NCBI GenBank assembly: GCA_027533425.1 | Contig: JAPZUD010000003.1 | Location: forward strand, 67,001 to 131,000 | Origin: Beijerinckiaceae bacterium | GTDB taxonomy: Bacteria; Pseudomonadota; Alphaproteobacteria; Rhizobiales; Beijerinckiaceae | Length of the DNA stretch: 64,000 nucleotides | Direction of reading: 5' to 3' | Shown here: in pieces, positions 19,506 through 57,282 of the stretch | Numbering within the stretch: the first letter of the stretch is position 1 | How the letters are laid out: each line of letters opens with the position of its first letter | Position numbers and translations under genes: made by a program | Notes under the pieces: model-generated | What the model saw: the letters and a program-made list of their open reading frames with translations, nothing else | Told to the model about the DNA's origin: nothing | Databases searched by the model: none

Positions 19506-19526
19506 AGGGCGGAGAGAAACAGGACC

Positions 19527-32465: not shown

Positions 32466-32496
32466 AAGCGGCATCCTCCCTGATGTCGTTTCGGGG

Positions 32497-39925: not shown

Positions 39926-42280
39926 TTACTCGGCGGCCTGTGAGCTGACTGAAGAAGACTGCTGATGCGCATGCCGGTCTGGCCTGGCCTTCAGCTTGAG
40001 CTCGACGAGGTCATCGCGCTCGCGCACGCTGTTGCGGAAGATCTGGTCCTTGCCGGGGCGATATTGCACCGGCTGGTGGATATCCGCCTGATACCAGGCG
40101 GCTGCACGCAGCGTGAAAGCGGGATCGGCCAGATGCGGCCGTCCGAGCGCGACGAGATCGGCCCGGCCCGCCGCGATGATTGTGTTCATCTGGTCGGCAC
40201 TGGTGATCGCCCCGACGCACATGGTGGCGATTCGCGCCTCGTTGCGGATCCGGTCCGAAAACGGCGTCTGGAACATCCGGCCGTAATTCGGCCGGGCATC
40301 ATGGACCGTCTGCCCGGTCGAGACATCGATCAGGTCGCAGCCTTCGGCGGCGAAGGCCTCGGCGATCGCCACCGAATCGGCGCCGCTCAGGCCGCCTTCC
40401 TTCCAGTCCGTCGCGGAGATGCGCACCGACATCGGCTTCTCCGCCGGCCAGGCCCGGCGCAGGGCGCGGAACACCTCCAGCGGGAAGCGCAGCCGGTTCT
40501 CGAGGCTTCCGCCATAGGCATCTTTCCGGCGATTGGTCAGCGGCGAGAGGAAGCTTGCCAGCAGGTAGCCATGGGCCGCATGCATTTCCAGCATGTCGAA
40601 GCCGGCGCGATGGCCGCGTTCTGCCGCCGCGACGAATTCAGCAATCACCCGGTCCATCCCGGCGCGGTCGAGTTCGGCCGGAACCTGGCTGTCCGGGTAA
40701 TAGGGCAGCGGCGAGGCCGAGACGATCGGCCAGGCGCCCTCCGGCAGCGGGCGGTCCATCCCCTCCCACATCAGCTTGGTCGCGCCCTTCTGGCCGGCAT
40801 GGCCGAGTTGCAGCGCGATCTTCGCCGCGGAATTGGCATGGACGAAACCGACGATCCGTTTCCACGCCGCTTCCTGCGCATCGGTATAGAGCCCGGCACA
40901 GCCCGGCGTGATCCGCGCATCCTCGGCCACGCAGACCATCTCGGTGAAGACGAGCCCGGCCCCGCCTACGGCGCGGGAACCGTAATGCATGAGGTGCCAG
41001 TCCTGCGGCATGCCATCGACCGCAGAATACTGGCACATCGGCGAGACCACCGCACGGTTCTCCAGCCTCATTTCCCGGAGCCGGAACGGCTGGAAGAGCG
41101 GCGGAACGGGGCTGCCATCCCGGCGTGCCTTCGCATCCGGCCCGACGGTCTCGGCTACCATCCGGTCAACGGCGGCAACCATTTCCGGCGCGCGGAGAGC
41201 CAGATTGTCATAGGTGATCGCCTTGGCGCGCGTCATCAGCCCGAAGGCGAAGCGCAATGGTTCGAAATGCCAGAAGCGCTGGACATCCTCGAACCAGACG
41301 AGGCTGACATCCGCCGCATGCTGTGTCTTCTCGACATCCTCGCGCCGGGCGGTCTCGAAATGGGCGAGCGCCGCCGGAACATCGAGCCCCTTGGCATGGA
41401 AGGCCTGATGCAAGGCGATGGAATCCTCCATGGCGAGCTTCGTGCCCGAGCCGATGGAGAAATGCGCCGTCGCCTTCGCATCGCCAAGCAGGACGATATT
41501 GTCCTTCACCCAGCGTGCGCAGCGGATCATCGGGAAGTTCCGCCACATCGAGCGGTTGGTGATCAGACGGTGCCCCTGCAATTCCTCGGCGAAGACACCC
41601 TCGAGGAAGGCCGCCGAGGCCGCCTCGTCCATCCGGTCGAGGCCAGCCTTGCGGAAAGTGGCCGGGTCGGTCTCGAGCACCCAGGTCGAATGACCCGGCT
41701 CATACTGGTAGCAATGCGCGATAAAGATGCCCTGCTCCGTCTCCTTGAAGAAGAAGGTGAAGGCATCGAAGGGCCGGGTCGAGCCCATCCAGGTGAAATG
41801 GTTGGGGCGCAGGTCGGTTTCCGGCTGGAAATGACCGCGATGCGTTTCCCGGATCCGGCTGTTGATGCCATCCGCAGCGACGACGAGATCATGCGTCGCT
41901 GCCAGCGCGTCACCATCGACGACCTCTTCCGAGAAGACAAGCCGGACACCGAGTTCGCGCGCCCGGGCCTGCAGCAGCATCAGCAGGGTCCGGCGTGAGC
42001 AGCCGCAGAAGCCATTGCCGCCGACGCGGTGGACGCTGCCTTTGAAATAGACTTCAATATCATCCCAATAGGCGAAACTGTCGGCGATCGCCCGGTAGCT
42101 CGGAGCATCGGTCGCGCGGAACGTGTCGAGGGTCTGGTCAGAAAAGACCACGCCGAAACCGAACGTGTCGTCGGGACGGTTGCGCTCGTAGACCGTGATG
42201 TCGAGCGAGGGCCAGTCCCGCTTCATCAGGAGCGCGTAATACAAACCGGCAGGCCCGCCGCCGACAACCGCAATGCGCAT
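39926..42280 (-). CDS. abmA: 2-aminobenzoyl-CoA monooxygenase/reductase (bifunctional; salicylyl-CoA 5-hydroxylase family)
   Basis: 784 residues. The N-terminal FAD monooxygenase (about 1-380) has [29 protein letters not shown] and [17 protein letters not shown]. The C-terminal old-yellow-enzyme barrel (about 395-745) has [37 protein letters not shown] and [13 protein letters not shown]. This fusion hydroxylates and then reduces 2-aminobenzoyl-CoA to a non-aromatic 2-amino-5-oxocyclohexenecarboxyl-CoA in Azoarcus evansii; some relatives are called salicylyl-CoA 5-hydroxylase. The nearby aminobenzoate-CoA-ligase-like gene favours the former. It is divergent from the catabolic operon, with a shared-type operator over its -10. 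Confidence 0.88.
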
Positions 42281-42306
42281 GGCACCCTCCCGCGATCGAG
42301 TGCAAG

Positions 42307-42336
42307 CATTTTAAGCTTGAAATATTTTTGTGGCAA
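42307..42336 (-). promoter_or_regulatory. abmA promoter with 18-bp palindromic operator
   Basis: On the minus strand TTGCCA (42336-42331), 17 bases, TAAAAT (42313-42308). The palindrome CATTTTAAGCTTGAAATA (42307-42324, plus-strand reading) covers the -10 and part of the spacer. It differs by one base from the site before the binding-protein gene at 54632. Confidence 0.75.
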
Positions 42337-42459
42337 GCGGCATCCGTGCCGCAGCTGGCCCTTCCGGGTGGCGCTCCGGCAATGCGGATCACAAGCTATT
42401 GATTTATAGTCCATACCGTCGGCAATGGCGGCTCGTTTGCATCGCGAGGGGCGACTGAC

Positions 42460-42487
42460 TGGACAATTACTTTGAATATGAAATAAT
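42460..42487 (+). promoter_or_regulatory. SDR-marR operon promoter with weaker copy of the same operator
   Basis: TGGACA (42460-42465), 16 bases, AATAAT (42482-42487). TACTTTGAATATGAAATA (42468-42485) is aligned with, and 13 of 18 identical to, the operator at 54632. It would allow the operon's own MarR protein to autoregulate. Confidence 0.55.
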
Positions 42488-42514
42488 GCACCGATCCTTG
42501 AATGAGGAGGCGAG

Positions 42515-43264
42515 ATGCCAAGCCTGACGGGCCAACACGCGCTGGTAACCGGCGGCGGCCGGGGGATCGGCCGGGCCGTGGCGGCAGCCTTGAAGGGCGC
42601 CGGAGCCCGCGTCACGATCACCGGGCGGGACCCGGCGCGCCTGGAAGCAGCGTTGAGCAAGGGCTGGGCGGATGCCGCCATCCCGCTCGACCTGACGGAC
42701 GAGGCCGCCATCGCCCCTGCCCTTGCCGCCCTCGGCCCGCTCGACATCGTGGTTGCCAATGCAGGCGGCGCCGAGACGCAACCCTTTCTCAAGGCCGATG
42801 CCGCGCATTGGCGGCGCATGCTCGATCTCAACCTCATCGGCACGGTACTGACCTTCCAGGCCGCGCTGCCGACAATGATCGAGCGCCGGCGCGGGCGGCT
42901 GATCGCCATCGCCTCGACCGCGGCCCATCGCGGCTATGCCTACACCGCCGCCTATGCTGCCTCGAAACATGCCGTGCTCGGCATGGTCCGCTCGCTGGCG
43001 CTCGAGGTGGCGCGGCATGGCATCACGGTCAATGCGGTATCGCCCGGCTTCACCGATACCGATCTCGTCGCCGGGGCGGTGGATCGCCTGCAGGACAAGG
43101 GTGGCCTTGATCGCGATTCTGCCAAGGCGAAGCTTGCGGCGGAGAACCCGCTCGGCCGGCTGATCCGCCCGGAGGAGGTTGCGGCCAGCGTGCTCTTCCT
43201 CGCCGGGGAAGGCGCGACCGGACTTTCGGGCCAGTCGATTCTCGTCAATGGCGGGGAATTCTGA
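42515..43264 (+). CDS. SDR family dehydrogenase, probably 3-hydroxyacyl-CoA dehydrogenase of the aminobenzoyl-CoA pathway
   Basis: 249-residue short-chain dehydrogenase. It has the nucleotide motif TGGGRGIGRA, NAG as VVANAGG, a catalytic Ser in IASTAAH and YxxxK as YAASKHA. ATG 42515 follows GAGGAGG. First gene of the operon; its stop overlaps the MarR start by one base. It would oxidise a 3-hydroxy-acyl-CoA produced after ring reduction and hydration; the exact substrate is inferred. Confidence 0.9.
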   Translation: MPSLTGQHALVTGGGRGIGRAVAAALKGAGARVTITGRDPARLEAALSKGWADAAIPLDLTDEAAIAPALAALGPLDIVVANAGGAETQPFLKADAAHWRRMLDLNLIGTVLTFQAALPTMIERRRGRLIAIASTAAHRGYAYTAAYAASKHAVLGMVRSLALEVARHGITVNAVSPGFTDTDLVAGAVDRLQDKGGLDRDSAKAKLAAENPLGRLIRPEEVAASVLFLAGEGATGLSGQSILVNGGEF

Positions 43265-43794
43265 TGGAAACGCCGGATGCTTTCCGCCCGCTCGACCGCG
43301 AGACCAAGGCCAGCGAACGCCCGGGCGACCACAAGGACGAGTTGCGCCTCTGGCTGCGGCTGCTGACCTGCTCGACCATGATCGAGCGCGAGATCCGCCG
43401 CCGCCTGCGCGAGGAATTCCGCACCACCCTGCCCCGCTTCGACCTGATGGCGCAGCTCGAGAAATCCGCCACCGGCATGACGGTGGGCGAGGTCTCGCAG
43501 CGGTTGATGGTCTCGAACGGCAATGTCACCACTGTCGTGGCGGGCCTTGTCGAGGATGGGCTGGTCGACAAGCGCCCTGCCCCGCATGACCGGCGCGTGC
43601 AGGTCATTTCGCTCACGGCATCGGGCCGCCGCCAGTTCCGCATCATGGCGGAGCGGCACGAGCAATGGATCGCCGATCTCTTTGCCGGGCTCGGCGGCAC
43701 GGATCTGCCGGCCCTGATGCGGCTGCTCGGCACGACAAAACAATCAATCCAGGGTGCCATCCGTCGGGCCGGCGCCGAAGCGGAGGAAGCATGA
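43264..43794 (+). CDS. MarR family regulator of the aminobenzoate operon
   Basis: 176 residues. The winged helix (about 55-125) has [30 protein letters not shown] and a [14 protein letters not shown] wing. It overlaps both flanking genes (TGATG with the SDR, ATGA with the crotonase), so it is cotranslated with the pathway enzymes. An acyl-CoA intermediate or aminobenzoyl-CoA is the expected ligand, as for related MarR proteins that govern CoA-dependent aromatic pathways. Its operator is probably the AAGCTT-centred palindrome found at the island's promoters. Confidence 0.92.
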
Positions 43795-44624
43795 GCGTCG
43801 CCAATGCCACCATCCTGCCGGTCGCGGCGGCGAAGCCCGCGCATTTCCGGCTCGCTGTTGCCGGCAAACGCGCGACGATCACGCTCGACCGGCCGGACAA
43901 GAAGAACCCGCTCACCTTCGAGAGCTATCGCGAGCTGACCGATCTCTTCCTCGCCCTGCAGAAGGAGGAGGCGGTGAAGGCCATCGTCGTGACCGGCGCC
44001 GGCGGGAATTTCTGCTCCGGCGGCGATGTCTTCGAAATTATCGGCCCGCTGGTCGAAATGGACACGGCCGGCCTGCTGAAATTCACCCGGATGACCGGCG
44101 AGCTGGTCAAGGCCATGCGGGCCTGCCCGCAGCCGATCATTGCCGCGATCGACGGCATCTGCGCCGGGGCCGGCGCCATCATCGCCATGGCCTCGGACCT
44201 GCGCCTCGGCACTTCGGGCGCAAAGATCGCCTTCCTGTTCAACCGCGTCGGTCTGGCTGGCTGCGACATGGGTGCCTGCGCCATGCTCCCCCGCATCATC
44301 GGACAGGGCCGCGCGGCGGAACTGCTCTATACCGGCCGGGTCCTGCGCGGCGAGGAAGCGGAGCGCTGGGGCTTCCTCAACCGCCTCGTCGCACCGGACG
44401 CGCTGCTGGCCGAGGCCGAGGCGTTGGCCCAGGACCTGGCCGATGGCCCGACCTTCGCCAATGCCATGACCAAGCGGATGCTGGAAATGGAATGGGCCAT
44501 GTCGGTCGAGAGCGCCATCGAGGCCGAGGCCGTCGCGCAGGCGCTCTGCATGCAGACCGAGGATTTCGCCCGGGCCTACCGCGCCTTCGCGGCGAAACAG
44601 AAACCGGTCTTCGAGGGGAACTGA
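43791..44624 (+). CDS. Enoyl-CoA hydratase/isomerase family protein
   Basis: 277-residue crotonase-fold enzyme. Oxyanion-hole parts are [12 protein letters not shown] and [18 protein letters not shown]. The usual first catalytic Glu (GGGCEL) is absent and the second site reads [16 protein letters not shown], with Asp or Cys in place of Glu. This makes ordinary hydration unlikely and suggests an isomerase or ring-opening role in the aminobenzoyl-CoA pathway. ATG 43791 overlaps marR by four bases. Function beyond the fold is inferred from the operon. Confidence 0.87.
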
Positions 44625-44627
44625 CGG

Positions 44628-45809
44628 ATGATCTCTCTCGGCGATACGCTCGACTGGCCCTTCTTCGAGCCGCATCACCGCGCCCATGCCGACGCGCTCG
44701 CCGCCTGGGCGGATGCGACCCTGCCTGCCCTCCCGCATGACGATGTCGATGCCGCCTGCCGCGCCCGCGTCAGGGCGCTGGGCAAGGCCGGCTTCCTCCG
44801 CGCCTGTGTGCCGGCCGCCTATGGCGGGCTGCATCCCGGCTTCGACGTGCGCACGCTCTGCCTCACGCGCGAGATTCTTGCCGCCCGCGATGGCCTTGCC
44901 GATTTCGCCTTCGCCATGCAGGGCCTCGGCACAGGCTCGATCACACTGGCCGGTTCGGAGGCGCTGAAGCAACGCTATCTCCCGGCCATCGCCCGGGGCG
45001 AGTCCATCGCCGCCTTCGCCCTGTCGGAGAAGGAAGCCGGCTCGGATGTCGCGGCCCTGGCCACCACGGCTGTTCCGGACGGCAATGACCATGTCCGGAT
45101 CGACGGCAACAAGACCTGGATCTCGAATGGCGGCATTGCCGACCATTACGTCGTCTTCGCCCGGACCGGCGAGGCCCCCGGCGCGAAGGGCCTGTCGGCC
45201 TTCATGGTCGACGCGGGAACGCCCGGCCTCTCCATCGCGGAGCGCATCGAGGTGATCGCCCCGCATCCGCTGGCCACTTTGCATTTCGACGGCTGCCGCG
45301 TGCCGGTGGCAAACCGGCTCGGCGGCCCGGGTGATGGGTTCCGCATCGCCATGGCGACGCTCGATATCTTCCGCTCCACGGTCGGAGCGGCCGCGCTGGG
45401 CTTCGCCCGGCGGGCCCAACACGAGGCGCTGGAACGCGCCACCAACCGCAAGCTGTTCGGCGGCGTCCTCGGCGACCTGCAACTGGCGCAGGCTGCGCTC
45501 GCGGAGAACGAGGCGGAGATCGAGGCCGCCGCCCTGCTGGTCTACCGCGCCGCCTGGACCAAGGATCGCGGCGCCGCCCGCGTCACGCGCGAAGCCGCCC
45601 TCGCCAAGATGGTCGCCACCGAGAATGCGCAGCGCGTGATCGACCGGGCCCTGCAATTGCATGGCGGTCTCGGCGTCACCAAGGGCGTCAAGGTCGAGGA
45701 ACTCTATCGCGAGATCCGCGCCCTCCGGATCTACGAGGGTGCAACCGATGTGCAGAAGATCGTCATCGCCCGCGAGGCCCTCAAGGCCCACGGGTCCCGG
45801 AAAGGCTAG
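44628..45809 (+). CDS. Acyl-CoA dehydrogenase
   Basis: 393-residue FAD-dependent dehydrogenase with [35 protein letters not shown], the flavin-binding [10 protein letters not shown] and a likely catalytic Glu in [11 protein letters not shown]. It starts three bases after the crotonase. In Azoarcus evansii an acyl-CoA dehydrogenase accompanies the 2-aminobenzoyl-CoA genes and acts in the beta-oxidation-like stage. Confidence 0.93.
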
Positions 45810-45818
45810 GAGAGCGCC

Positions 45819-47480
45819 ATGTTCAGATCGGGGCATGTGGACAGTTTCTGCCGGGACAGCCTGCCGCCACCGGAGCAATGGCCCGATCTTCGCCTCGCCG
45901 AGGCTGGCCTCGCCTATCCCGAACGACTGAATGTCGTCACCGAACTGGTCGATTCCCATGTGACGGCCGGGCGTGGCGACCGGATCGCCCTTCTCGCCGA
46001 CGGTCTCCGCTGGACCTATGCCGAGCTGGCCGAACGCATCAACCGCATCGCCAATGTGCTGGTGCGCGATCTCGGGCTGGTGCCGGGCCAGCGCGTCCTC
46101 CTGCGCGCACCGAACACCCCGATGCTGGTGGCGGCCTATTTCGCCGTGCTCAAGGCCGGTGGCGTCGCCGTCGCCACCATGCCCATGTTGCGGGCCCGGG
46201 AACTTGCCTATCCGTTGATGAAGGCGCGCATCACCCTTGCCCTGTGCGATCACCGCCTGATGGAGGATCTCGAGGCGGCGACCGAACTCGCGCCCGTGCT
46301 CGAACGGATCGTCACTTTCGGCGGTGGCGAGCTTGAAACCCTGATGGACCAGCCGGGCTACGGGGCCTTTACGGCCGCCGATACCGCGCAGGATGATGTC
46401 TGCCTGATCGGCTTCACCTCCGGCACGACGGGCGAGCCCAAGGGCACGATGCATTTCCACCGCGACCTGCTGGCCATCTGCGATTGCTATGGCGCCCGCA
46501 TCCTCGCCGCCGATCCGGAGGATCGCTTCATCGGCTCGCCGCCCCTCGCCTTCACCTTCGGTCTTGGCGGGCTGGTGCTTTTCCCGTTCCGCATCGGCGC
46601 CGCCTCGATCCTGCTGGAAAAAGCCGGCCCGCCCGACCTGCTGACCGCCATTGCCGCCCACCGGGCCACGGTCTGCTTCACCGCCCCGACCGCCTACCGC
46701 GCCATGCTCGACAAACTGGGCGAGCAGGATGTCTCCAGCCTGCGCATCTGCGTCTCGGCCGGCGAGGCCCTGCCGAAAGCCACCTTCGAGGCCTGGCAGG
46801 CGAAAACCGGCATCCCGCTGATGGATGGAATCGGCGCGACGGAGATGCTGCATATCTTCATCGCCGCCCCGCGCGGGAAAATCCGCCCCGGCGCCACAGG
46901 ACTGCCGGTCCCCGGCTACGAAGCCCGGATCCTCGACGAGGCCGGCAACCCGGTGCCCGACGGCACGCCCGGCCGCCTCGCCGTGCGCGGCCCGACCGGC
47001 TGCCGCTATCTCGCCGATCCGCGCCAGGCCAAATATGTCGCCGATGGCTGGAACATCACCGGCGATACCTATCTGCGCGATGCGGATGGCTATTTCTGGT
47101 ATCAGGCCCGCTCGGACGACATGATCATCTCCGCCGGCTACAATATTGCCGGCCCGGAAGTGGAGGCCAGCCTCCTCACCCATCCCGCGGTGGCGGAATG
47201 CGGCGTGGTCGGCGTACCGGATGCCGAGCGCGGCATGATCGTCCGGGCCTATATCGTCCTGCGCGAGGGCCATGCCGGCGATGCAGCGATGACCAAGCGC
47301 CTGCAGGACCACGTCAAGGCGGATATTGCCCCCTACAAATACCCGCGCGACATCGTCTATGCCGCCAGCCTGCCGAAAACCCAGACCGGCAAGTTGCAAC
47401 GGTTCGAATTGCGGCGCATGGCTCTCGCAGAAACCAGGCGCGCGGAGGCTTTGCCCGCCGGGGCAAGACAGGCGAGCTGA
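45819..47480 (+). CDS. abmG: 2-aminobenzoate-CoA ligase (benzoate-CoA ligase family)
   Basis: 553-residue AMP-forming ligase. Phosphate loop IGFTSGTTGEPKGTMHFH, SPPLAFTFGLGG, DGIGATEMLHIFI, the DGWNITGDTYLRDADG hinge region and catalytic Lys in LPKTQTGKLQR. The TEMLHIF pattern is that of benzoate and 2-aminobenzoate ligases. It activates 2-aminobenzoate with ATP and CoA, opening the pathway. Other aryl acids such as benzoate or salicylate cannot be excluded from sequence alone. Confidence 0.88.
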   Translation: MFRSGHVDSFCRDSLPPPEQWPDLRLAEAGLAYPERLNVVTELVDSHVTAGRGDRIALLADGLRWTYAELAERINRIANVLVRDLGLVPGQRVLLRAPNTPMLVAAYFAVLKAGGVAVATMPMLRARELAYPLMKARITLALCDHRLMEDLEAATELAPVLERIVTFGGGELETLMDQPGYGAFTAADTAQDDVCLIGFTSGTTGEPKGTMHFHRDLLAICDCYGARILAADPEDRFIGSPPLAFTFGLGGLVLFPFRIGAASILLEKAGPPDLLTAIAAHRATVCFTAPTAYRAMLDKLGEQDVSSLRICVSAGEALPKATFEAWQAKTGIPLMDGIGATEMLHIFIAAPRGKIRPGATGLPVPGYEARILDEAGNPVPDGTPGRLAVRGPTGCRYLADPRQAKYVADGWNITGDTYLRDADGYFWYQARSDDMIISAGYNIAGPEVEASLLTHPAVAECGVVGVPDAERGMIVRAYIVLREGHAGDAAMTKRLQDHVKADIAPYKYPRDIVYAASLPKTQTGKLQRFELRRMALAETRRAEALPAGARQAS

Positions 47481-47523
47481 CGCCACCAAGAAGCGGGCGC
47501 AACGGCGCCAGACGGAGGAAGAC

Positions 47524-47958
47524 ATGTCGATTTCGGCGCTCAAAGCAGCCGTCCTGCAGGGCGGTGGCCCCGTGGCGATCCAGCCCGAGGGCTGGCCGCG
47601 CCCGCGCGGCTATGCCAATGGCATGATGGCGCGCGGCACCTTGGTCCTGACCGGCGGCGTTGTCGGCTGGGACGCGCAGGAGCGCTTTCCCGACGGCCTC
47701 GTTGCGCAGACGCGGCAGGCCCTTGCCAATATCGTCGCAATCCTCGAAGCCGGCGGTGCGCGGCCGGACCAGCTCATGCGCATGACCTGGTACGTGACCG
47801 ACATGGCGGCCTATCGCGCCAGCCTGCCGGAAATCGGCGCAGCCTATCGCGAGACGATCGGCCGGCATTTCCCGGCGATGGCCCTGGTGCAGGTGGTCTC
47901 GCTGGTCGAGCCGCAGGCCGTGGTCGAGATCGAGGCCACGGCTGTCATCCCGGATTGA
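47524..47958 (+). CDS. Rid (YjgF/YER057c/UK114) family protein, likely imine/enamine deaminase of the pathway
   Basis: 144 residues, Rid fold, with QPEGWPRPRGYANG near the N-terminus and VEIEATAVIP at the end. The Arg that contacts the substrate carboxylate in true RidA (Arg105, in ARSCVEV) is replaced: here the segment reads FPAMALVQVVSL. So it is not a standard 2-aminoacrylate deaminase. Within this operon it could hydrolyse the enamine/imine of 2-amino-5-oxocyclohexenecarboxyl-CoA and release ammonia. That role is inference. It starts 44 bp after the ligase. Confidence 0.85.
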   Translation: MSISALKAAVLQGGGPVAIQPEGWPRPRGYANGMMARGTLVLTGGVVGWDAQERFPDGLVAQTRQALANIVAILEAGGARPDQLMRMTWYVTDMAAYRASLPEIGAAYRETIGRHFPAMALVQVVSLVEPQAVVEIEATAVIPD

Positions 47959-47993
47959 TGGCACGGAACGGACGCGAAAGGCGGGAGCAGGAC

Positions 47994-49406
47994 ATGGCGA
48001 AGGCAGGATCCTCGGGAACCGGCAAATCCGGAACGGGCAGGGACAAGGTGGGCAAAGACAAGGTGGGCAAAGACAAGGCGGGCAAGGCCGGCGCGAAGGC
48101 GGCGAAGCCGACCCGCGCCATGGTCGTGGTCACGCAACCCGCGGCGCAATCCTTCAATTCGCCACCCAAGGTGCTGATCGCCGGCGCCGGTGTCGGCGGG
48201 CTCACCCTCGCGCTGATGCTCCATGCCCGCGGTGTGTCCTGCCGGCTCTACGAACAGGCCAGCGCAATCCGCGAGGTCGGGGCCGGCATCAACGCCCTGC
48301 CGCATGCGATCAAGGAACTGGCCCTGCTCGGCCTGCTCCCGGCCCTCGATGCGGTGGGGGTGCGCACGAGCGAACTCTTCTACATGAACCGCACCGGCCA
48401 GGTTGTCTGGCGCGAGCCGCGCGGCATCGCCGCCGGCTTCGACGTGCCGCAATTCTCGATCCATCGCGGCCGGCTACAGAAGGTGCTGCATCACGCCGTG
48501 ATCGAGCGCATGGGCCCGGGCGCCATCGTCACCGGCCGCAAGCTGACCGGCTTCGTCCAGGACGAGGGCGGCGTCACGGCCTGGTTCACCGACAGCATCG
48601 ATGGCTCCGGCAGCGAGACCGTGCGGGGCGAGGTACTGGTCGGAGCCGACGGCATCCATTCCGTGATCCGCAGCCATTACCACCCCGATCAGGGCCTGCC
48701 GCGCTGGAACGGCGTGCAGATGTGGCGCGGCTGCGCCGATTTCCCCGCCTTCATGGATGGCCGCAGCATGATCATTGCCGGCGGCATGAGCGGCAAGCTG
48801 GTGCTCTATCCGATCGGCGAGGGGCAGACGCCGCAGACACGCCTGACCAACTGGGTCGTCAATGTCCGGATCTCCGATACGCCCCATCCGCCGGGCAAGG
48901 AAAGCTGGTCACGCCGGGGCCGCCTCGACGAGGTGCTGCCCCATGCCGCGCGCTTCGCCATTCCCGGTTTCGATGTGCTCGGCCTGATCCGCTCGACCGA
49001 CGCGTTCTTCGAATATCCGATGTGCGACCGTGACCCCCTGTCCCGCTGGACGCATGGCCGTGTCACCCTGCTCGGCGATGCGGCGCATCCGATGTATCCG
49101 GTCGGCTCGAACGGCGCGGGGCAGGCCATTCTCGATGCCCGCTGCTTCGCGGAATGCTGGGTGAAAGCCGAGCATCCCTGGCAGGCCCTGCTTGCCTACG
49201 AGGCCGACCGCCTGCCGAAAACGGCCGAGATCGTCGCGCTGAACCGCAAGGGCGGGCCGGAACGCGTCATCGACGAGGTAGAGAAACTCGCCCCGGCCGG
49301 CTTCACGGATGTCGACCGGGTGATGGGTTACGACGAGCGCAAGGCCATCGTACGGGGCTATGCCGGCAAGGCCGGCTTCACGGTGCAGCAGCTGACGAAG
49401 ATGTGA
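47994..49406 (+). CDS. PhzS-like FAD-dependent aromatic monooxygenase with Lys-rich N-terminal tail
   Basis: 470 residues. After an unusual ~45-residue Lys/Gly-rich leader comes a class A flavin monooxygenase: VLIAGAGVGGLTLALML, VLVGADGIHSVIRSHYHPDQ and LLGDAAHPMYPVGSNGAGQAILD. The spacing and motifs (MWRG, DGRSMIIAGG) are close to PhzS, which hydroxylates a phenazine carboxylate. ATG 47994 has GGGAG upstream; an ATG at 48120 would remove the leader but has no ribosome site. Last gene of the aminobenzoate operon. Substrate unknown; a hydroxylated or alternative aromatic entry compound is possible. Confidence 0.85.
   Translation: MAKAGSSGTGKSGTGRDKVGKDKVGKDKAGKAGAKAAKPTRAMVVVTQPAAQSFNSPPKVLIAGAGVGGLTLALMLHARGVSCRLYEQASAIREVGAGINALPHAIKELALLGLLPALDAVGVRTSELFYMNRTGQVVWREPRGIAAGFDVPQFSIHRGRLQKVLHHAVIERMGPGAIVTGRKLTGFVQDEGGVTAWFTDSIDGSGSETVRGEVLVGADGIHSVIRSHYHPDQGLPRWNGVQMWRGCADFPAFMDGRSMIIAGGMSGKLVLYPIGEGQTPQTRLTNWVVNVRISDTPHPPGKESWSRRGRLDEVLPHAARFAIPGFDVLGLIRSTDAFFEYPMCDRDPLSRWTHGRVTLLGDAAHPMYPVGSNGAGQAILDARCFAECWVKAEHPWQALLAYEADRLPKTAEIVALNRKGGPERVIDEVEKLAPAGFTDVDRVMGYDERKAIVRGYAGKAGFTVQQLTKM
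48042..48086 (+). repeat. 15-bp tandem repeat encoding a Lys-Gly tail
   Basis: Three units of GACAAGGTGGGCAAA, the last with two changes, encode DKVGK-DKVGK-DKAGK near the N-terminus of the monooxygenase. Because the unit is a multiple of three, copy-number change keeps the frame. Confidence 0.85.
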
Positions 49407-49419
49407 GGCAAGGAGCGCC

Positions 49420-49869
49420 TCACGCATCCGGCGGCGGCAGGAAGTCGATCTCGTGCTTGGCCGCAAGGGCCACGACTTCCGCCGGGTTCTGGTCCTTCAT
49501 CGAATGGATGGCCCAGAAGAGATCATAGAGGCGGCGGGTCGGCGACACCCAGAAGAAGCATTTCACCACCTGGTCCGACTTGTTGAAAATGCCATGCGGC
49601 AGCCCCATCGGCAGGCGGATCAGGTCCCCCGGGCCAGCCTTGACCTCACGGCCATCAAGCAGCAGCTCGAAATTCCCTTCGAGCATGTAGATGAACTCGT
49701 CCTGCGTCGGGTGGATATGCGGCGGCACGAAAGTCCCGGGCGGGAAGGTCGCGTGCCAGGAAAAGGCGCTTTCGCAGACCTGCTTGGGCACATAGGTCTG
49801 CCCGAGAATGTTCCAGGCGATCCCGTCGATCCCTTCGCCGGCACGGGTGATTCCGGGGGTGAGCTTCAT
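49420..49869 (-). CDS. Single-domain cupin protein
   Basis: 149 residues with both cupin motifs intact: GTFVPPHIHPTQDEFIYMLEG (G-x5-HxH-x4-E-x6-G) and GDLIRLPMGLPHGIFN (G-x5-PxG-x2-H-x3-N), so it should bind a metal. It could be a small dioxygenase, isomerase or sensor. ATG 49869 is chosen because GGGAGGA lies seven bases upstream; it abuts the other ATG at 49875. It is the last gene of the minus-strand importer operon and convergent with the PhzS-like gene. Confidence 0.85.
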   Translation of the reverse strand: MKLTPGITRAGEGIDGIAWNILGQTYVPKQVCESAFSWHATFPPGTFVPPHIHPTQDEFIYMLEGNFELLLDGREVKAGPGDLIRLPMGLPHGIFNKSDQVVKCFFWVSPTRRLYDLFWAIHSMKDQNPAEVVALAAKHEIDFLPPPDA

Positions 49870-49911
49870 GACCATTCCTCCCTTGGATTGTCGCGGCCAA
49901 ACGTGCTGAAG

Positions 49912-50610
49912 TCAGACATGCAGATAGCGGTCCTTGAGCACCGGGTCGGCCATCAGCGCGGCGGAATCACCGCGCCAGACCACCTTCCCCTTCTCGAGGA
50001 TGACATGCCGGTCGGCAAAGGCGGCCAGGGCATCGACATTCTTGTCGATCACCAGGATGGCCTCGCCCTCCCGCTTGAGTTGCCGGAGGCATTCCCAGAT
50101 CTCCTGCCGGATCAGCGGCGCAAGACCTTCCGTCGCCTCGTCGAGAATGACGAGCTTCGGGTTGGTCATCAGCGCCCGGCCGATCGCCAGCATCTGCTGT
50201 TCGCCGCCCGAGAGCTGGTTGCCCATGTTGCGCTGCCGCTCCTTCAGCCGCGGGAAAAGCGCATAGACCGTGTCCAGCGTCCAGCGGGGCGCGCCGAAGC
50301 GGCTCGCGGCCGTGGCGACGAGATTCTCCTCCACCGACAGGGTCGGGAAGACCTGCCGCCCCTCCGGCACGAGGCCGAGCCCGCCCTGCGCGATGCGGTA
50401 GGGCGGCGCGCCTGTCAGGTCCCGCCCCTCGATCCGCACGCGGCCGGCGCGCGGCTTCAGCAGCCCCATGATCGACTTGATCGTCGTGGTCTTGCCCATC
50501 CCGTTACGGCCGAGCAAGGTCACCACCTCGCCTTGTCCGACCGAAAGATCGACCCCGAACAGGATCTGGCTGTCGCCATAGGCGGCCTCGAGCCCCTCGA
50601 CCTCCAGCAT
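49912..50610 (-). CDS. livF: ABC transporter ATP-binding protein, LivF type (second importer)
   Basis: 232 residues. Walker A GRNGMGKTTTIKSI, signature LSGGEQQMLAIGRAL, Walker B LVILDEATEGLAP (Ala in place of the usual Pro after Glu). Overlaps the LivG-type gene by one base. Confidence 0.93.
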   Translation of the reverse strand: MLEVEGLEAAYGDSQILFGVDLSVGQGEVVTLLGRNGMGKTTTIKSIMGLLKPRAGRVRIEGRDLTGAPPYRIAQGGLGLVPEGRQVFPTLSVEENLVATAASRFGAPRWTLDTVYALFPRLKERQRNMGNQLSGGEQQMLAIGRALMTNPKLVILDEATEGLAPLIRQEIWECLRQLKREGEAILVIDKNVDALAAFADRHVILEKGKVVWRGDSAALMADPVLKDRYLHV

Positions 50611-51362
50611 CAGCCGCCCTCCTCGCCGAGATAGGCCGTGCGCACTTCCGGATCGTCCCGCACGGCCGCCGGCGGCCCGGAGGCGATGATCCGGCCATAG
50701 ACCAGCACGGAAACCCGTTCGGCCAGCGCGAACACGGCCTCCATGTCATGCTCGATGAGCAGGATCGTCATCCGCCCGCGCAACCGCTGCATCAGCGCGA
50801 TCAGCACGGCGCTTTCCTCCGGCCCGGTTCCGGCCAAAGGCTCGTCCAGCAGCAGCACGCGCGGCTGCGCAGCCAGCGCGATGGCGATTTCCAGCTGCCG
50901 CTTCTCGCCATGGGAGAGCAGTCCGGCGCGCACGCCGGCCCGCTTGCCGAGGCCGACTTCCTCGAGCGCCTGCATCGCCGGATCGTTGAGCCGCGTTTCC
51001 TCGCGCGCCCGGCCGAAGAAGCGGAAGCTCGAGCCCTGCCGCGCCTGCACCGCGAGCGCCACATTCTCCAGTGCCGAGAAGCCCGGCAGGATCGAGGTGA
51101 TCTGGAACGAACGCACCAGCCCGCGATGGACGCGCTCGGGCAGGGAGAGGTCGGTCACATCGTGCCCGGCCAGCCGGACCGAGCCGGAATCCGACGGAAC
51201 CAGCCCGGAAATCTGGTGGATCAGCGTCGTCTTGCCGGCGCCGTTCGGCCCGATAATCGCGTGGAACTCGCCATCGGGCAGCGCCAGCGAGACATGGTCC
51301 GTCACGGTCAGCGCGCCATAGGCCTTGTTGAGATCGCGGAGTTCGAGCGCCGGCTCAGCCAT
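50610..51362 (-). CDS. livG: ABC transporter ATP-binding protein, LivG type (second importer)
   Basis: 250 residues from ATG 51362. Walker A GPNGAGKTTLIHQIS, altered signature LSHGEKRQLEIAIAL, Walker B VLLLDEPLAGTGPEE. Overlaps the upstream permease gene by eight bases. Confidence 0.93.
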   Translation of the reverse strand: MAEPALELRDLNKAYGALTVTDHVSLALPDGEFHAIIGPNGAGKTTLIHQISGLVPSDSGSVRLAGHDVTDLSLPERVHRGLVRSFQITSILPGFSALENVALAVQARQGSSFRFFGRAREETRLNDPAMQALEEVGLGKRAGVRAGLLSHGEKRQLEIAIALAAQPRVLLLDEPLAGTGPEESAVLIALMQRLRGRMTILLIEHDMEAVFALAERVSVLVYGRIIASGPPAAVRDDPEVRTAYLGEEGG

Positions 51363-52332
51363 GGCCACCGCCTCCGCCGATCCGCCGGATCGCACCCATC
51401 AGCCCGCCCCGGGCGAACAGCACGACCAGCACGAGGAAGGGCCCGAAAATCATCTTCCAGTGCTCGGTGAAGCCGGAGAGCCACTCCTCCAGCAGCAGAA
51501 AGGCCGCCGCGCCGATGATCGCGCCATGCAGGGTCCCGAGCCCGCCGAGGACCACCATGACGATCAGTTCGCCCGAGCGCTGCCAGGTCATGTAGGCCGG
51601 GCTGACAAATTCCGCCTGGTTGGCCAGCAGGAACCCGGCCAGCCCGCACAGCGTGCCGGCGATGACATAGCCGACGAGCTGGTACCGGAAGAGCGGGAAC
51701 CCGATCGCCGCCATGCGCTGCGGGTTCTCGCGCGCGCCGCGGATCACCCGCCCGAAGCGCGAGACGACGATCGACCGGCAAAGCCCGTAGGCGCCCAGCA
51801 GGGCCAGCAGCACCGCGTAGTAGAAGGCCCGGTCATTCTTGATGAGGTCCATGCCGAAAAGCTTCGACCGGCCCGGCAGCGTCATGCCGTCATCGCCGCC
51901 ATAGGCGGCCAGCGAGACGGCGAGGAAGAACGCCATCTGCCCGAAGGCCAGCGTGATCATGATGAAATAGACGCCCTTCGTCCGGAGCGAGAGCGCACCG
52001 GTGATCAGGGCGAACAGCGCCGAGACGGCCAGGGCCACCGGCAGCTGGACCAGCGCATCGGTCTGGCCATGCGCCGAGAGGATGCCGACCGCATAGCCGC
52101 CCAGCCCGAGAAAGGCGGCATGGCCGAAGGAAACCAGCGCGCCATAGCCGAGGATAAGATCGAGCGACAACGCGGCGATGGCGAAGATCATCACCCGCGT
52201 GACCAGCGAGAGCAGGTAGCTCTCTGCCCCGAGCGCGGCGACAAATGGGACCAGTGCCAGCAGGGCAAAGAGCAGGACCGGAACGGCCTCGCGTTTCAGG
52301 AATCCGGGGCCGTTCTCGGGAGGCATTGTCAT
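51355..52332 (-). CDS. livM: ABC transporter permease, LivM type (second importer)
   Basis: 325 residues with about nine to ten membrane helices, the family motif LGYGALVSFGHAAFLGLGGYA and the ATPase-contact loop IRGARENPQRMAAIG. Four-base overlap with the LivH-type gene. Confidence 0.93.
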   Translation of the reverse strand: MTMPPENGPGFLKREAVPVLLFALLALVPFVAALGAESYLLSLVTRVMIFAIAALSLDLILGYGALVSFGHAAFLGLGGYAVGILSAHGQTDALVQLPVALAVSALFALITGALSLRTKGVYFIMITLAFGQMAFFLAVSLAAYGGDDGMTLPGRSKLFGMDLIKNDRAFYYAVLLALLGAYGLCRSIVVSRFGRVIRGARENPQRMAAIGFPLFRYQLVGYVIAGTLCGLAGFLLANQAEFVSPAYMTWQRSGELIVMVVLGGLGTLHGAIIGAAAFLLLEEWLSGFTEHWKMIFGPFLVLVVLFARGGLMGAIRRIGGGGGHG

Positions 52333-53249
52333 TTCTTCGCCGGGAAGAGGCCGCCGGGCCGGAAGAACAGGATCGCGGCCATCAGGATGTAGGTCAGCAT
52401 CGGTGCCAGCGCGCGGCCCGCCTGCGAGGCGGCGGAGGGGTCCATCAAGGCCCGCAGCACTTGGGGCCCGAAGACGCGACCCAGCGTATCGACCAGCCCG
52501 ACCAGGATCGCGGCGATGAAAGCGCCCCGCACCGAGCCGATGCCGCCGATCACGATGACAACGAAGGTCAGGATCAGCAGGTTGTCGCCCATACCGGGCT
52601 CCACCGAAAGGATCGGCGCCACCATCGCGCCGGCAAACCCCGCGAGCATGGCCCCGAAGCCGAAGACGACCATGAAGAGCTTGCCGATATCGACCCCGAG
52701 CGCGGAGACCATCGGCGCATTGCTAGCCCCCGCCCGGACCAGCATGCCGATCCGGGTCCGGCTGACAAGGATGCCGAGCAACACGGCAATGGCGAGGCCC
52801 GACCCGATGATCGCCAGCCGGTAGACCGGGTAGAGGAGCCCGTCCATCAGCCGGATCGAGCCGCTCAGCGCCTCAGGGATCGGCACGGAGAGCGGCGCCG
52901 CCCCCCAGATCACCTTCACCGCCTGGTTGAGGAAAAGGATGATCCCGAACGTGGCGAGCACCTGGTCGAGATGGTCGCGGTCATAGAGATGACGGAAGAT
53001 CAGGAATTCCAGCAGGAGCCCGAAGGCCAGCGCCGAAGGCAAAGCGAGAGCCAGCCCGTAGAAGAAATTGCCCGTCAGCGCCGTGAACATCGCCGCCAGA
53101 TAGGCACCGATCATGTATTGCACGCCATGGGCGAGATTGATGAAGTCCATCACCCCGAAAACCAGCGTCAGGCCGGCGGCGATCAGGAACAGCAGCACGC
53201 CCAGTTGCAGGCCGTTCAGGGTCTGCACGTAGAGGAGCGTCATCGACAT
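52329..53249 (-). CDS. livH: ABC transporter permease, LivH type (second importer)
   Basis: 306 residues with eight or more membrane helices, the motif GLTLVFGVMDFINLAHGVQYMIGAY and VFGFGAMLAGFAGAM. Begins MSMTLLYVQTLNGLQLG at 53249; codons further upstream lie in the GC-rich spacer after the binding-protein gene and are rejected. The 121-bp gap to the binding-protein gene shows no clear gene. Confidence 0.92.
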   Translation of the reverse strand: MSMTLLYVQTLNGLQLGVLLFLIAAGLTLVFGVMDFINLAHGVQYMIGAYLAAMFTALTGNFFYGLALALPSALAFGLLLEFLIFRHLYDRDHLDQVLATFGIILFLNQAVKVIWGAAPLSVPIPEALSGSIRLMDGLLYPVYRLAIIGSGLAIAVLLGILVSRTRIGMLVRAGASNAPMVSALGVDIGKLFMVVFGFGAMLAGFAGAMVAPILSVEPGMGDNLLILTFVVIVIGGIGSVRGAFIAAILVGLVDTLGRVFGPQVLRALMDPSAASQAGRALAPMLTYILMAAILFFRPGGLFPAKK

Positions 53250-53370
53250 GGCGGACCCGCGAGGCTGGGGCGAGGAAGGAAACGGCCCGGCTGTTTGGCC
53301 CGCCGCCTGCGCCCGGCCGCCCAGGAAAACCGGGCGGGACGGACGGATGGCGGGCCGACGGGCCGGAGCG

Positions 53371-54546
53371 TCAGTTCGGCAGCTTGCAGTCCTTCGCGTA
53401 CACGTCGACGTAGTTTTCGAAGATCTTCTGCCGGATCGAGGTCTGGAACTTGCCATCCGGCCGGGGAACGGCCTGGACAAGGTAGAAGTCCTGGATCGGG
53501 TAGCCGTTATGGCCCATCTTGAAATTGCCGCGCAGCGACTTGAAATCGGCCTTGCGGAGGCCGGCGCGGATGGCATCCTTGTTCCCGAGCTTGCCGCCGG
53601 CGCTGCGGATCGCGGCATCGATCAGCATCGCGGCATCATAGGCCTGCATCGCATAAGTGCCCGGAACCGAATTATAGGCGGCCTCATAGGCTTTCACGAA
53701 CGCTTCCGATTGCGGGTTCTTCATGTCCGGCGCCCAGTTGGCCCCGCCGAAGAAGCCGACCGCCGCCTCCTTCTGCGCCGGCAGCGTGGATTCATCCACG
53801 GTGAAGGCCGAGAGGAACGGGATGGCATCCGCAAGACCCGCCTGACGGTACTGGCGCACGAGGTTCACACCCATGCCGCCCGGCATGAAGGTGAAGAGCG
53901 CATCCGGCTTGGCGGCGGCGATCTGGGCCAGTTCGGCAGAGAAATCGAGTTGCCCGAGCGGGGTATAGACCTCGGCAACAATCTCGCCCTTGAAATGGCG
54001 CTTCACGCCGGCCAGCGCATCACGGCCAGCCTGGTAGTTCGGCGCCATCAGGAACAGCTTCTTGTAGCCCTTGTCCTGCGCATACTTGCCCAGAACCTCA
54101 TGGTTCTGGTCGTTCTGGTAGGAGGTCACGTAGAAATTCGGGTTGCACTGCGCCCCGGCAAAGTTCGACGTGCCGGCATTCGGGCTGATCAGGAACGCGT
54201 TCGAATCGACAACCGGCTTGTGAATCGCCTGAAGGACATTCGAGAAGATCGGGCCGACGACGAAATTCACCTGATCGCGCTCGAGCAGGCCCTTGACCTT
54301 GCCCACCGCGACATCCGGCTTCAACTCGTCATCGACAACGATCACCTCGGCATCGACGCCACCGAGCTTGCCACCCAGCGTCTTCACAGCGAGGTTGAAC
54401 CCGTCGCGCGCCTGCTGGCCAAGCACGGCCGACGGGCCGGACAGGGTCACCATGATCCCCACCTTGACCTTCTCCTGCGCCATCAGGGCGCCGGTGGAGA
54501 GGGCCAGCAAGGCTGCCGGCAACAGCATTTTCGTTTTCGCAAACAT
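53371..54546 (-). CDS. ABC transporter substrate-binding protein (LivJ type) for the aminobenzoate island
   Basis: 391 residues. Signal peptide MFAKTKMLLPAALLALSTGALMAQ, then KVKVGIMVTLSGPSAVLGQQARDG and a type I periplasmic-binding fold. ATG 54546 has GGAGG upstream. It is first in an operon with LivH, LivM, LivG, LivF and a cupin. Its promoter carries the same palindrome as the abmA promoter, so the cargo is probably 2-aminobenzoate or the compound made from it. This is inferred from shared regulation. Confidence 0.9.
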   Translation of the reverse strand: MFAKTKMLLPAALLALSTGALMAQEKVKVGIMVTLSGPSAVLGQQARDGFNLAVKTLGGKLGGVDAEVIVVDDELKPDVAVGKVKGLLERDQVNFVVGPIFSNVLQAIHKPVVDSNAFLISPNAGTSNFAGAQCNPNFYVTSYQNDQNHEVLGKYAQDKGYKKLFLMAPNYQAGRDALAGVKRHFKGEIVAEVYTPLGQLDFSAELAQIAAAKPDALFTFMPGGMGVNLVRQYRQAGLADAIPFLSAFTVDESTLPAQKEAAVGFFGGANWAPDMKNPQSEAFVKAYEAAYNSVPGTYAMQAYDAAMLIDAAIRSAGGKLGNKDAIRAGLRKADFKSLRGNFKMGHNGYPIQDFYLVQAVPRPDGKFQTSIRQKIFENYVDVYAKDCKLPN

Positions 54547-54631
54547 CGTTCCACCTCCGCTGACGAGGGCTAAGCCCCGCATGAAACTTGGTTTTTCGGC
54601 CAGCTTGACGCCTGGTCTCGTTCCTGAATTT

Positions 54632-54662
54632 TATTTTAAGCTTGAAATAAATCGCTTGTGAA
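54632..54662 (-). promoter_or_regulatory. Importer promoter with 18-bp palindromic operator
   Basis: On the minus strand TTCACA (54662-54657), 18 bases, TAAAAT (54638-54633). The palindrome TATTTTAAGCTTGAAATA (54632-54649), one mismatch from perfect, covers the -10 and part of the spacer, the same geometry as at abmA. Confidence 0.75.
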
Positions 54663-54682
54663 GCCCCTCCCGCGCGATTCTT

Positions 54683-55096
54683 TCAGGCCTTCTCGAAACG
54701 GATCGGCTGCGCTCCTTCCCAGAGGGTCTTGCGGCCGAGCGTGTAGAGATTTTCGAGGCCCGACGTCAGCGTCAGGAAATGGTTCCCGGAGAGCTGGCCG
54801 GCCTTCGAGGCGAAATTCACATTGCCATAGGCGAGCAGGATCTCCGTCTCGCTGACGCCGCCCGGATAGAGGATGATCTGCCCCGGCGAGGGGTAGCAGG
54901 TATTGTTCTCGTAGCCGACGCCGAAATCCATGTCGCCCAGCGGAATCCAGACGCCCTCGCCCGACCAGCGGACATGCACGATCTTGCTTTCGAACGGCAG
55001 GTGGCGAAGGAAGGCCTCGCAGGTCTTGGGCGCCATCTCGCGCTCGAGGCGCGCAGCGAAACGGAACGGGCCGGCAGTGACGATCAGGTCGGACAT
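54683..55096 (-). CDS. DUF3830 family protein (cyclophilin-like fold)
   Basis: 137 residues resembling DUF3830 proteins, which have a small beta-barrel cyclophilin-like fold and no known activity. Recognisable stretches are LEREMAPKTCEAFLRHLPFESKIVHVRWSGE (in parts) and YPGGVSETEILLAYG. It lies upstream of the importer operon on the same strand and may be expressed with pobR or by itself. Proteins of this family recur near aromatic or amide catabolic genes, but a function cannot be stated. Confidence 0.8.
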   Translation of the reverse strand: MSDLIVTAGPFRFAARLEREMAPKTCEAFLRHLPFESKIVHVRWSGEGVWIPLGDMDFGVGYENNTCYPSPGQIILYPGGVSETEILLAYGNVNFASKAGQLSGNHFLTLTSGLENLYTLGRKTLWEGAQPIRFEKA

Positions 55097-55201
55097 AGGC
55101 AGGTCAACTCCTTGAGGAAAGCGGCATCGTAGCCGCTCGTTCGATACAGGCCAGCAAAAAACATTCCGGAGCCACGCAGTGCACCATGCGACGGAATGCC
55201 C

Positions 55202-55993
55202 TCAGCGCCGCCCCATCGCCATGGCGATGGCCTGGGCCGCTTCCTGCAGGGCCGGCAGGAAATCGGACAGCATCTGCGCCTCGCTCACGCGGGCGGCCTG
55301 CGCGCTGACATTGACGGCGTAGCGGGTGCGCGTTCCGAGATCCGCCACGGCAACTGCGATCGAGCGCAGCCCGAGTTCGAGTTCCTCCGAGACAAGGGCG
55401 TGCCCGTCCTGCCGGATCTGGGCCAGCCGCTGGCGCAGGGCCGGCTCCGTGGTGAGCGTATTGGGCGTGAACGCGACCAGCTTCGCCTGCGAAAAATAGC
55501 GTTCGAGTTCCCGGATATGCAGTCCGGCCAGCAGCATCTGGCCCATCGAGGTTGCATGGGCGGGCAGCCGCGTGCCGACCGAAAGCCCGATCGCCATGAT
55601 CCGGTGGAGCGCGGGCGACCGTGCGACATAGACGATCTCGGTCCCGTCAAGCATGGCCGCCGAGGCGGATTCGCCGGTCCGCCTTGTGACCTCGACCAGA
55701 ACGTCGCGCACGATCTCCAGTTCTGACAGGCCGGACAGGAAAGCCTGCCCGATTCCGAGAATGGCCGGCGTCAGCTGGAAATACTTCCCGTCCGTCCGCG
55801 CGAGCCCCAGATCGGTCAGGGTCAGCAGGAAACGCCGCGCAGCGGCCCGGGTCAGCCCGGTATGGGCAGCAACATCGGTGATGGTCTGGCTTTTCCGCCC
55901 GTCGAAACTCCGGATGACATCCAGCCCGCGGCGAAAGGATTCAACGGTCTCGTCTCTCGGCAAGCAGGCCTCGTTCGACTCTCGAACAAACAC
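55202..55993 (-). CDS. pobR: IclR family regulator of 4-hydroxybenzoate catabolism (PobR/PcaR type)
   Basis: Up to 263 residues: winged helix (about 20-75, TITDVAAHTGLTRAAARRFLLTL) and IclR ligand domain (about 90-260) of the PcaU/PcaR/PobR subgroup (SVGTRLPAHATSMGQMLLAG). It is divergent from pobA, so it probably activates pobA in response to 4-hydroxybenzoate. The GTG at 55993 is the longest start and has no ribosome site. A TTG at 55963 with GAGG five bases upstream is an alternative, which would leave the operator palindrome outside the gene. Confidence 0.88.
   Translation of the reverse strand: MFVRESNEACLPRDETVESFRRGLDVIRSFDGRKSQTITDVAAHTGLTRAAARRFLLTLTDLGLARTDGKYFQLTPAILGIGQAFLSGLSELEIVRDVLVEVTRRTGESASAAMLDGTEIVYVARSPALHRIMAIGLSVGTRLPAHATSMGQMLLAGLHIRELERYFSQAKLVAFTPNTLTTEPALRQRLAQIRQDGHALVSEELELGLRSIAVAVADLGTRTRYAVNVSAQAARVSEAQMLSDFLPALQEAAQAIAMAMGRR

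Positions 55994-56094: not shown

Positions 56095-57282
<1,188 letters not shown>

Follow-up and report, generated by a model that had tools for sequence, protein, structure and literature searches.

Why should almost the same palindrome stand at two places 12 kb apart in one catabolic island, which protein binds it, and what do the genes behind it have in common? These questions arise from a stretch of 64,000 nucleotides of a Beijerinckiaceae bacterium (contig JAPZUD010000003.1, positions 67,001 to 131,000; "the window" hereafter means this whole stretch). In its aminobenzoate island, abmA, encoding a fused monooxygenase/reductase, is divergent from an operon with the gene order SDR dehydrogenase, marR, enoyl-coenzyme A (CoA) hydratase, acyl-CoA dehydrogenase, CoA ligase, RidA and flavin adenine dinucleotide (FAD) monooxygenase, and a branched-chain-type importer with its binding protein follows the marR operon on the opposite strand. 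We propose that the palindrome is the operator of the MarR-family protein encoded at 43264-43794 and that the island very probably belongs to a MarR repressor regulon for the 2-aminobenzoyl-CoA pathway, where binding, repression, effector and the substrate of the importer are all read from sequence.

An inverted repeat over three predicted promoters

The two palindromes, already described from the sequence alone, were confirmed: CATTTTAAGCTTGAAATA at 42307-42324 (operator 1) and TATTTTAAGCTTGAAATA at 54632-54649 (operator 2) differ by a single base and are near-perfect with respect to the symmetric consensus of the inverted repeat, TATTTTAAGCTTAAAATA, with 1 and 2 mismatches, respectively. At up to 3 mismatches to this pattern they are the sole places in the 64-kb window, for which 100 dinucleotide shuffles gave a mean of 0.01 matches. 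They are also the sole places in the 3.75 Mb assembly, in which the control pattern, read backwards, gave one forward and one reverse match. A third, degenerate copy, TACTTTGAATATGAAATA at 42468-42485 (operator 3), is identical to the copy at 54632 in 13 of 18 positions and overlaps the promoter of the SDR-marR operon, in agreement with the earlier description.

A consensus scan for sigma-70-like promoters returned 2 sites in 42250-42560 (mean of 0.2 in shuffles) and 1 site in 54500-55250 (mean of 0.1), and in these two intergenic regions all three predicted promoters are overlapped by a copy of the palindrome:

42307-42324, no strand: operator 1, overlapping the -10 of abmA; TAAAAT lies inside the palindrome in the abmA promoters of relatives
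42308-42336, minus strand: abmA promoter, TTGCCA-17-TAAAAT (consensus promoter scan)
42460-42487, plus strand: SDR-marR operon promoter, TGGACA-16-AATAAT (consensus promoter scan)
42468-42485, no strand: operator 3, degenerate, at the SDR-marR promoter, based on conservation in the alignment
54632-54649, no strand: operator 2, overlapping the -10 of the importer operon
54633-54662, minus strand: importer operon promoter, TTCACA-18-TAAAAT (consensus promoter scan)

At abmA and at the binding-protein gene the palindrome covers the -10 fully, and the scan recovered the TAAAAT that the sequence-only reading had placed there; at SDR it spans most of the spacer and 4 of the 6 bases of the -10. A protein bound to the palindrome would thus cover the promoter, which makes repression the likely mode. 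The same overlap, complete at two promoters and partial at the third, would also be seen if the palindrome were no operator but simply an AT-rich -10 region that is conserved, which we consider very improbable. The far half-site, dispensable for a -10, is conserved as well, the SDR copy lies mostly within the spacer, and genes inside the operons nearly always lack the palindrome. Furthermore, the offset to the TTG box in relatives differs between abmA promoters and those of SDR or the importer, and we rejected the explanation as a mere -10 region because one palindrome is common to these differing offsets. The geometry was compared in 68 clustered abmA promoters, motif-fetched loci among them, each with a site of at most 4 mismatches no more than 170 bases from the start. 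A box of the TTG or TTGACA-like kind begins 11-13 bases before the palindrome in 50 occurrences and at any other offset in at most 3; TAAAAT within the palindrome is 16-18 bp downstream of this box. The SDR direction has a weaker tendency to an offset of 17-19 bases (13 occurrences in 33 rows), and TTCAC stands at equal offset in the importer promoters of L113, L118, L119, L120, L123, L125 and L158. A reading of the palindrome as a terminator was rejected as well; the weak terminator-like match at 42303-42319 is located at the abmA promoter.

Operator 3 has 6 mismatches to the consensus and ties with the places 1870 and 6468 of the window, so that its sequence alone does not single it out. On that ground it would have been rejected, but 15 abmA-SDR intergenic regions, when aligned, spoke for keeping it. 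All 8 island-bearing genomes of the genus (the window's own genome included) share an identical block, CTGGACAATT-2 bases-TTTGAATATGAAATA, in which respect they differ in the middle of the intergenic region, which is not conserved. At the aligned place, the palindrome is closer in the 5 Bosea rows (5 to 6 mismatches) and poorer in the rows of G028 and G068 (7 mismatches); the genus labels Rhabdaerophilum, for the window's genus, and Bosea were assigned by us. The third copy, earlier called a probable site, is upheld by this footprint and is taken as a real, weaker operator.

Conservation of the operator and its likely owner

The check suggested by the sequence-only reading was a search for the motif upstream of orthologous operons. 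We scanned 300 bases upstream of each gene for sites of at most 4 mismatches in the loci L003-L132, which were fetched via the MarR protein or its place only, with identical upstream regions removed. The site was conserved at abmA (64 of 82 upstream regions; 51 of 66 after crude clustering), at the importer binding protein (26/28; 20/22 clustered) and at SDR (53/83; 47/74 clustered), so that the lack of conservation that would have spoken against the earlier reading was not observed. In many loci one intergenic region serves both SDR and either abmA or the binding protein, and the counts are therefore not independent of one another. The CoA ligase (7/57) and marR (7/97) rarely had a site of their own. 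Almost none was present upstream of the operon-internal enoyl-CoA hydratase (0/84), acyl-CoA dehydrogenase (1/80) and RidA (1/87), of the FAD monooxygenase (0/17), or of the other importer genes (LivF 0/38, LivG 0/39, LivM 0/38, LivH 0/38). A wider set includes L133-L172, which were mostly fetched for holding a motif and bias its counts towards sites; there the binding protein had a site in 34 of 38 regions, shuffles averaged at most 0.05 matches per gene set and the reversed pattern had no match. Among the 18 abmA regions without a site, AACTTTAAGCTTGAAGTT (5 mismatches) is present in nine, and in another of them, L109, abmA comes after the CoA ligase, which has a site. The two binding proteins without a site (L074 and L105) are 44 and 41% identical to that of the window.

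The operator is also kept where its genes are far from marR. In the Bosea-like genomes G067 and G027 the importer is on a different contig from marR, more than 60 kb from the ends of its contig, with the site before the binding protein, and a relative of the FAD monooxygenase has its own operator copy (L155, L157). In G098 importer, abmA and marR lie far apart on one contig, all three with a site (L158, L159). Six genomes have a site at an abmA far from marR (L159, L160, L163, L168, L169, L170); L166 is near a contig end and its abmA could be linked to marR. Altogether 20 off-island regions were fetched because each holds a motif (the places read are part of those listed, and most of the four in G035 were left out), and in 16 of them a recognised regulon gene adjoins the site. 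Since the importer keeps its operator even far from the island (L155, L157, L158), there is good support for the earlier proposal that the island's substrate enters through this second importer, as far as such a role can be read from a shared operator.

The other four off-island regions have no recognised regulon gene beside the palindrome, which may mark an extra target or have arisen by chance: L156 (6465) is near an enoyl-CoA hydratase-like open reading frame, L161 (6916) near a luciferase-like monooxygenase, L167 (6909) near an aminotransferase and a family-3 binding protein, and L164 (6806) has no clear gene nearby.

The owner of the site was sought through co-occurrence in 199 genomes. 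A genome counted as MarR-bearing if its match reached E 1e-24, and the palindrome was accepted within 2 mismatches. Among the motif matches listed, the palindrome was found in 54 of 75 MarR-bearing genomes and in 3 of 124 others (G125, G171, G186), compared with 7 of 75 and 10 of 124 for the reversed control pattern. Within the genus, again among the matches listed, it occurred in 8/8 genomes whose MarR is 82% identical or more and in 0/9 others. One of these nine, G010, holds a 57% identical MarR beside the importer and, in front of the binding protein, a looser site with 3 mismatches (L149); no abmA match was present within the fetched stretch. As a paralogue control, abmA was sought in 80 of the 124 MarR-lacking genomes. 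A match at E 1e-60 was present in 42 of them, nearly always covering one half of the protein and full length in G186. Of the 30 loci obtained, only L221 and L222 had a site of at most 4 mismatches, in both cases just upstream of abmA proteins about 52% identical; the other 28 had none.

The protein itself is a MarR by its domains, which are over the curated cutoffs (PF12802 with 50.0 bits, cutoff 27; PF01047 with 34.6, cutoff 24.6), and by its predicted structure, which has the MarR fold with a mean predicted local distance difference test (pLDDT) score of 86.5 and MarR proteins as structural matches. The palindromic operator stands at its own operon as well as at target promoters, as judged from the sequence. 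The alignment of 30 alpha- and betaproteobacterial MarR sequences with at least 50% identity to the window's contains an invariant segment of 12 residues. Rows with the recognition helix SPGN have operators with the outer bases AA..TT in 19 of 21 cases and on one side only in the other two (L090, L091), and TGGN rows have operators ending in AAACTA in 6 of 8; six SNGN rows (L092, L093, L095, L096, L097, L099) also have operators beginning with TAG. Relatives of this MarR are further held by 104 plasmid records.

Several observations weigh against this assignment. Among the matches listed, 21 of the 75 MarR-bearing genomes have no place within 2 mismatches, some of them with looser sites (e.g. 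G010, L149). G186 has a full-length abmA with a site 58 bases upstream, and its contig stops 51 bases after the abmA match. In G023 a contig end cuts abmA, leaving a partial gene with a 3-mismatch site. Neither genome has a MarR match at E 1e-24. The motif-fetched loci L148 and L150 have binding-protein genes (58 and 70% identity) without a site within 300 bases. The pairing of helix and operator is confounded with clade, which explains at least part of it, and L060 combines an SAGN helix with an AA..TT operator. That another transcription factor owns the palindrome and MarR is a mere neighbour would fit G186 and G023, and the ownership by MarR rests on sequence evidence. We nevertheless regard another owner as improbable, given the co-occurrence across all genomes and within the genus and the site in 53 of the 83 regions upstream of the SDR-marR operon itself. 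The earlier naming of this MarR as the owner is thus supported by co-occurrence, by the operator at the SDR-marR operon and by the operators at unlinked genes, and we take the protein at 43264-43794 as the probable regulator.

Genes of the island and the substrate of the pathway

The genes behind these predicted promoters in the window were assigned as follows:

39926-42280, minus strand: abmA, fused FAD monooxygenase / OYE reductase of the 2-aminobenzoyl-CoA monooxygenase/reductase type (NF006101, 1131.9 bits, cutoff 1078)
42515-43264, plus strand: SDR dehydrogenase, first gene of the marR operon (profile matches)
43264-43794, plus strand: MarR-family regulator, proposed owner of the operator (PF12802 and PF01047 over cutoff; MarR fold predicted)
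43791-44624, plus strand: enoyl-CoA hydratase family (family match)
44628-45809, plus strand: acyl-CoA dehydrogenase (profile matches)
45819-47480, plus strand: benzoate-CoA ligase family, aryl-CoA ligase (TIGR02262, 379.5 bits, cutoff 375.25)
47581-47958, plus strand: RidA-family (enamine/imine deaminase-like) domain, start approximate (PF01042 over cutoff; below the NCBIfam cutoffs)
47955-49406, plus strand: FAD monooxygenase, PRK07538 group, true start probably further in (NF005720, 549.2 bits, cutoff 400)
49912-50610, minus strand: importer ATPase, LivF type (profile match)
50610-51395, minus strand: importer ATPase, LivG type (family match)
51355-52332, minus strand: importer permease, LivM type (family match)
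52329-53273, minus strand: importer permease, LivH type, start approximate (family match)
53371-54582, minus strand: importer binding protein (Peripla_BP_6), first gene of the importer operon, start possibly further in (PF13458, E 9.1e-78)

The gene set of the aerobic 2-aminobenzoyl-CoA pathway is therefore found together here, with an aryl-CoA ligase, the fused monooxygenase/reductase and beta-oxidation-type genes. Close to the importer operator, just upstream and not downstream of it, lies a DUF3830 gene (54683-55096, minus strand), which is kept near the importer in the 8 island-bearing genomes of the genus. A 4-hydroxybenzoate 3-monooxygenase gene near the island (56110-57282, plus strand; TIGR02360 over cutoff) carries no palindrome, and at up to 3 mismatches none was found at the first branched-chain-type importer (19485-22128, plus strand) or at the gene of the phenylacetyl-CoA epoxidase subunit PaaA (31470-32474, minus strand).

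Tryptophan 2,3-dioxygenase and kynureninase belong to a route that produces anthranilate (2-aminobenzoate), and in relatives motif sites lead to genes of both, namely tryptophan 2,3-dioxygenase in L153, L171 and L172 and kynureninase in L162; the L172 dioxygenase and the L162 kynureninase are over the NCBIfam cutoffs. When tryptophan dioxygenase was sought independently of the motif, it matched in 25 of 50 MarR-bearing and 3 of 60 MarR-lacking genomes, two sets that differ taxonomically, with 22 and 2 matches over the family cutoff. Of the 25, 14 had a site of at most 4 mismatches where the gene or its apparent operon begins, counting G153 with a site about 1 kb upstream, and none of the 3 did; the reversed pattern was absent from these loci. 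In the congener G009 the abmA operator is followed by four genes close together on one strand, in the order abmA, PF04199 putative cyclase, kynureninase, tryptophan dioxygenase; we take the PF04199 gene to be of the kynurenine formamidase type. In L171 (6562-7794, plus strand) and L172 (5382-6596, minus strand), a distant kynureninase-like pyridoxal phosphate enzyme is divergent from the tryptophan dioxygenase, with the palindrome between them.

These genes bear on a different reading of the regulon, in which the palindrome is the operator of this MarR and the pathway serves another aromatic acid such as salicylate, with salicylyl-CoA or the free acid as effector. For this speak the NCBIfam name of NF006101, which abmA matches over cutoff as a bifunctional salicylyl-CoA 5-hydroxylase/oxidoreductase, and the structural matches of the MarR model, among which are MarR structures determined with salicylic acid and with indole acids. 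Further points against our main reading are that 11 of the 25 genomes with tryptophan dioxygenase have no site at this gene (one of them, G009, has the gene behind abmA), that only 3 of 18 kynureninase loci have a site, and that no match to tryptophan dioxygenase, which had been expected, or to kynureninase was found in the window's own genome, which presumably relies on imported anthranilate. We nevertheless think salicylate unlikely. The operator-bearing genes of relatives make anthranilate, so that 2-aminobenzoate fits better; tryptophan dioxygenase and kynureninase also stand directly behind abmA with the PF04199 gene in one congener, and the RidA-family gene would fit an enamine intermediate. 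The evidence from sequence thus favours anthranilate as the substrate. The small regulon of uptake, CoA activation and ring attack that had been postulated for the window is supported, and in relatives it appears wider by the tryptophan-to-anthranilate genes.

Proposed regulation, known systems and significance

In the mechanism we propose, a MarR dimer on the -10 (abmA, importer) or the spacer (SDR-marR) would block RNA polymerase, and because one operator precedes the operon encoding the regulator, MarR would also control itself. Once the CoA ligase has activated available anthranilate, a metabolite of the pathway, most simply 2-aminobenzoyl-CoA, could release the repressor, so that uptake, CoA activation, ring attack and beta-oxidation would be switched on jointly; in relatives the regulon would also take in tryptophan 2,3-dioxygenase and kynureninase as makers of anthranilate. 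That the operon holds a CoA ligase and enzymes acting on acyl-CoA suggests an acyl-CoA effector, and 2-aminobenzoyl-CoA is plausible in this role.

Among the closest known systems is CouR of Rhodococcus jostii RHA1, described as a MarR-family repressor of p-hydroxycinnamate catabolism that acts on an inverted repeat and is released by an aromatic acyl-CoA of the pathway (PMC4737184). Here, too, a predicted MarR repressor would act on an inverted repeat at genes for an aromatic acid, and the predicted structure matches the CouR chains 3fm5 and 5cyv, with and without p-coumaroyl-CoA. In contrast to CouR, the pathway is a different one, the identity in the structural alignment is 21 to 22% and the acyl-CoA effector is here a deduction. 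According to the same paper, two homologues that lose their DNA binding with acyl-CoA lack Arg36 and Arg38, the residues that contact the CoA phosphates in CouR. The MarR regulators of auxin catabolism (PMC9613470, in its accessible part) likewise control the degradation of aromatic acids, and the indole-acid structures 7kua and 7kfq are among the fold matches, but those structures hold indole or salicylic acids instead of CoA thioesters and the gene sets differ. FabT (PMC9083066, as far as its text was available) has a similar helix-turn-helix stretch in a profile alignment and palindromic operators at promoters including its own; unlike the release proposed here, acyl-acyl carrier protein enhances DNA binding of FabT, whose targets are fatty-acid synthesis genes; the comparison yielded no FabT operator sequence to set beside the palindrome.

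For the pathway itself, the aerobic 2-aminobenzoyl-CoA route of Azoarcus evansii is described as a CoA ligase, a monooxygenase/reductase flavoenzyme and subsequent beta-oxidation enzymes (PMC4539516, accessible part). The window's island has the same kinds of enzymes; unlike the system of that account, it belongs to an alphaproteobacterium and includes an importer and a MarR of its own. The words regulator and transport are absent from the accessible text of this review, as are the terms MarR and kynuren from that of a study of betaproteobacterial regulons (PMC6449761). In the literature searched, which left most subscription papers outside, we found no description of a MarR regulator or operator for the 2-aminobenzoyl-CoA pathway, and a published one may exist.

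A catabolic MarR regulon is a well-known kind of system; this one has a well-defined operator and includes more genes than the sequence-only reading had seen. In its broadest form, the proposal is that a single MarR with one 18-bp operator governs a widespread proteobacterial regulon. Both tryptophan, via the kynurenine route, and anthranilate taken up by a dedicated branched-chain-type ABC importer would be fed into the aerobic 2-aminobenzoyl-CoA pathway, and 2-aminobenzoyl-CoA would be the signal; we regard the chances of this whole picture as even. Through the operator, the aminobenzoyl-CoA regulon of many proteobacteria acquires a definition that can be tested. The operator also points to a likely substrate for a branched-chain-type importer that would otherwise be anonymous, and it would tie the kynurenine route to the 2-aminobenzoyl-CoA pathway. 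The regulator could also be used to sense anthranilate or its CoA thioester.

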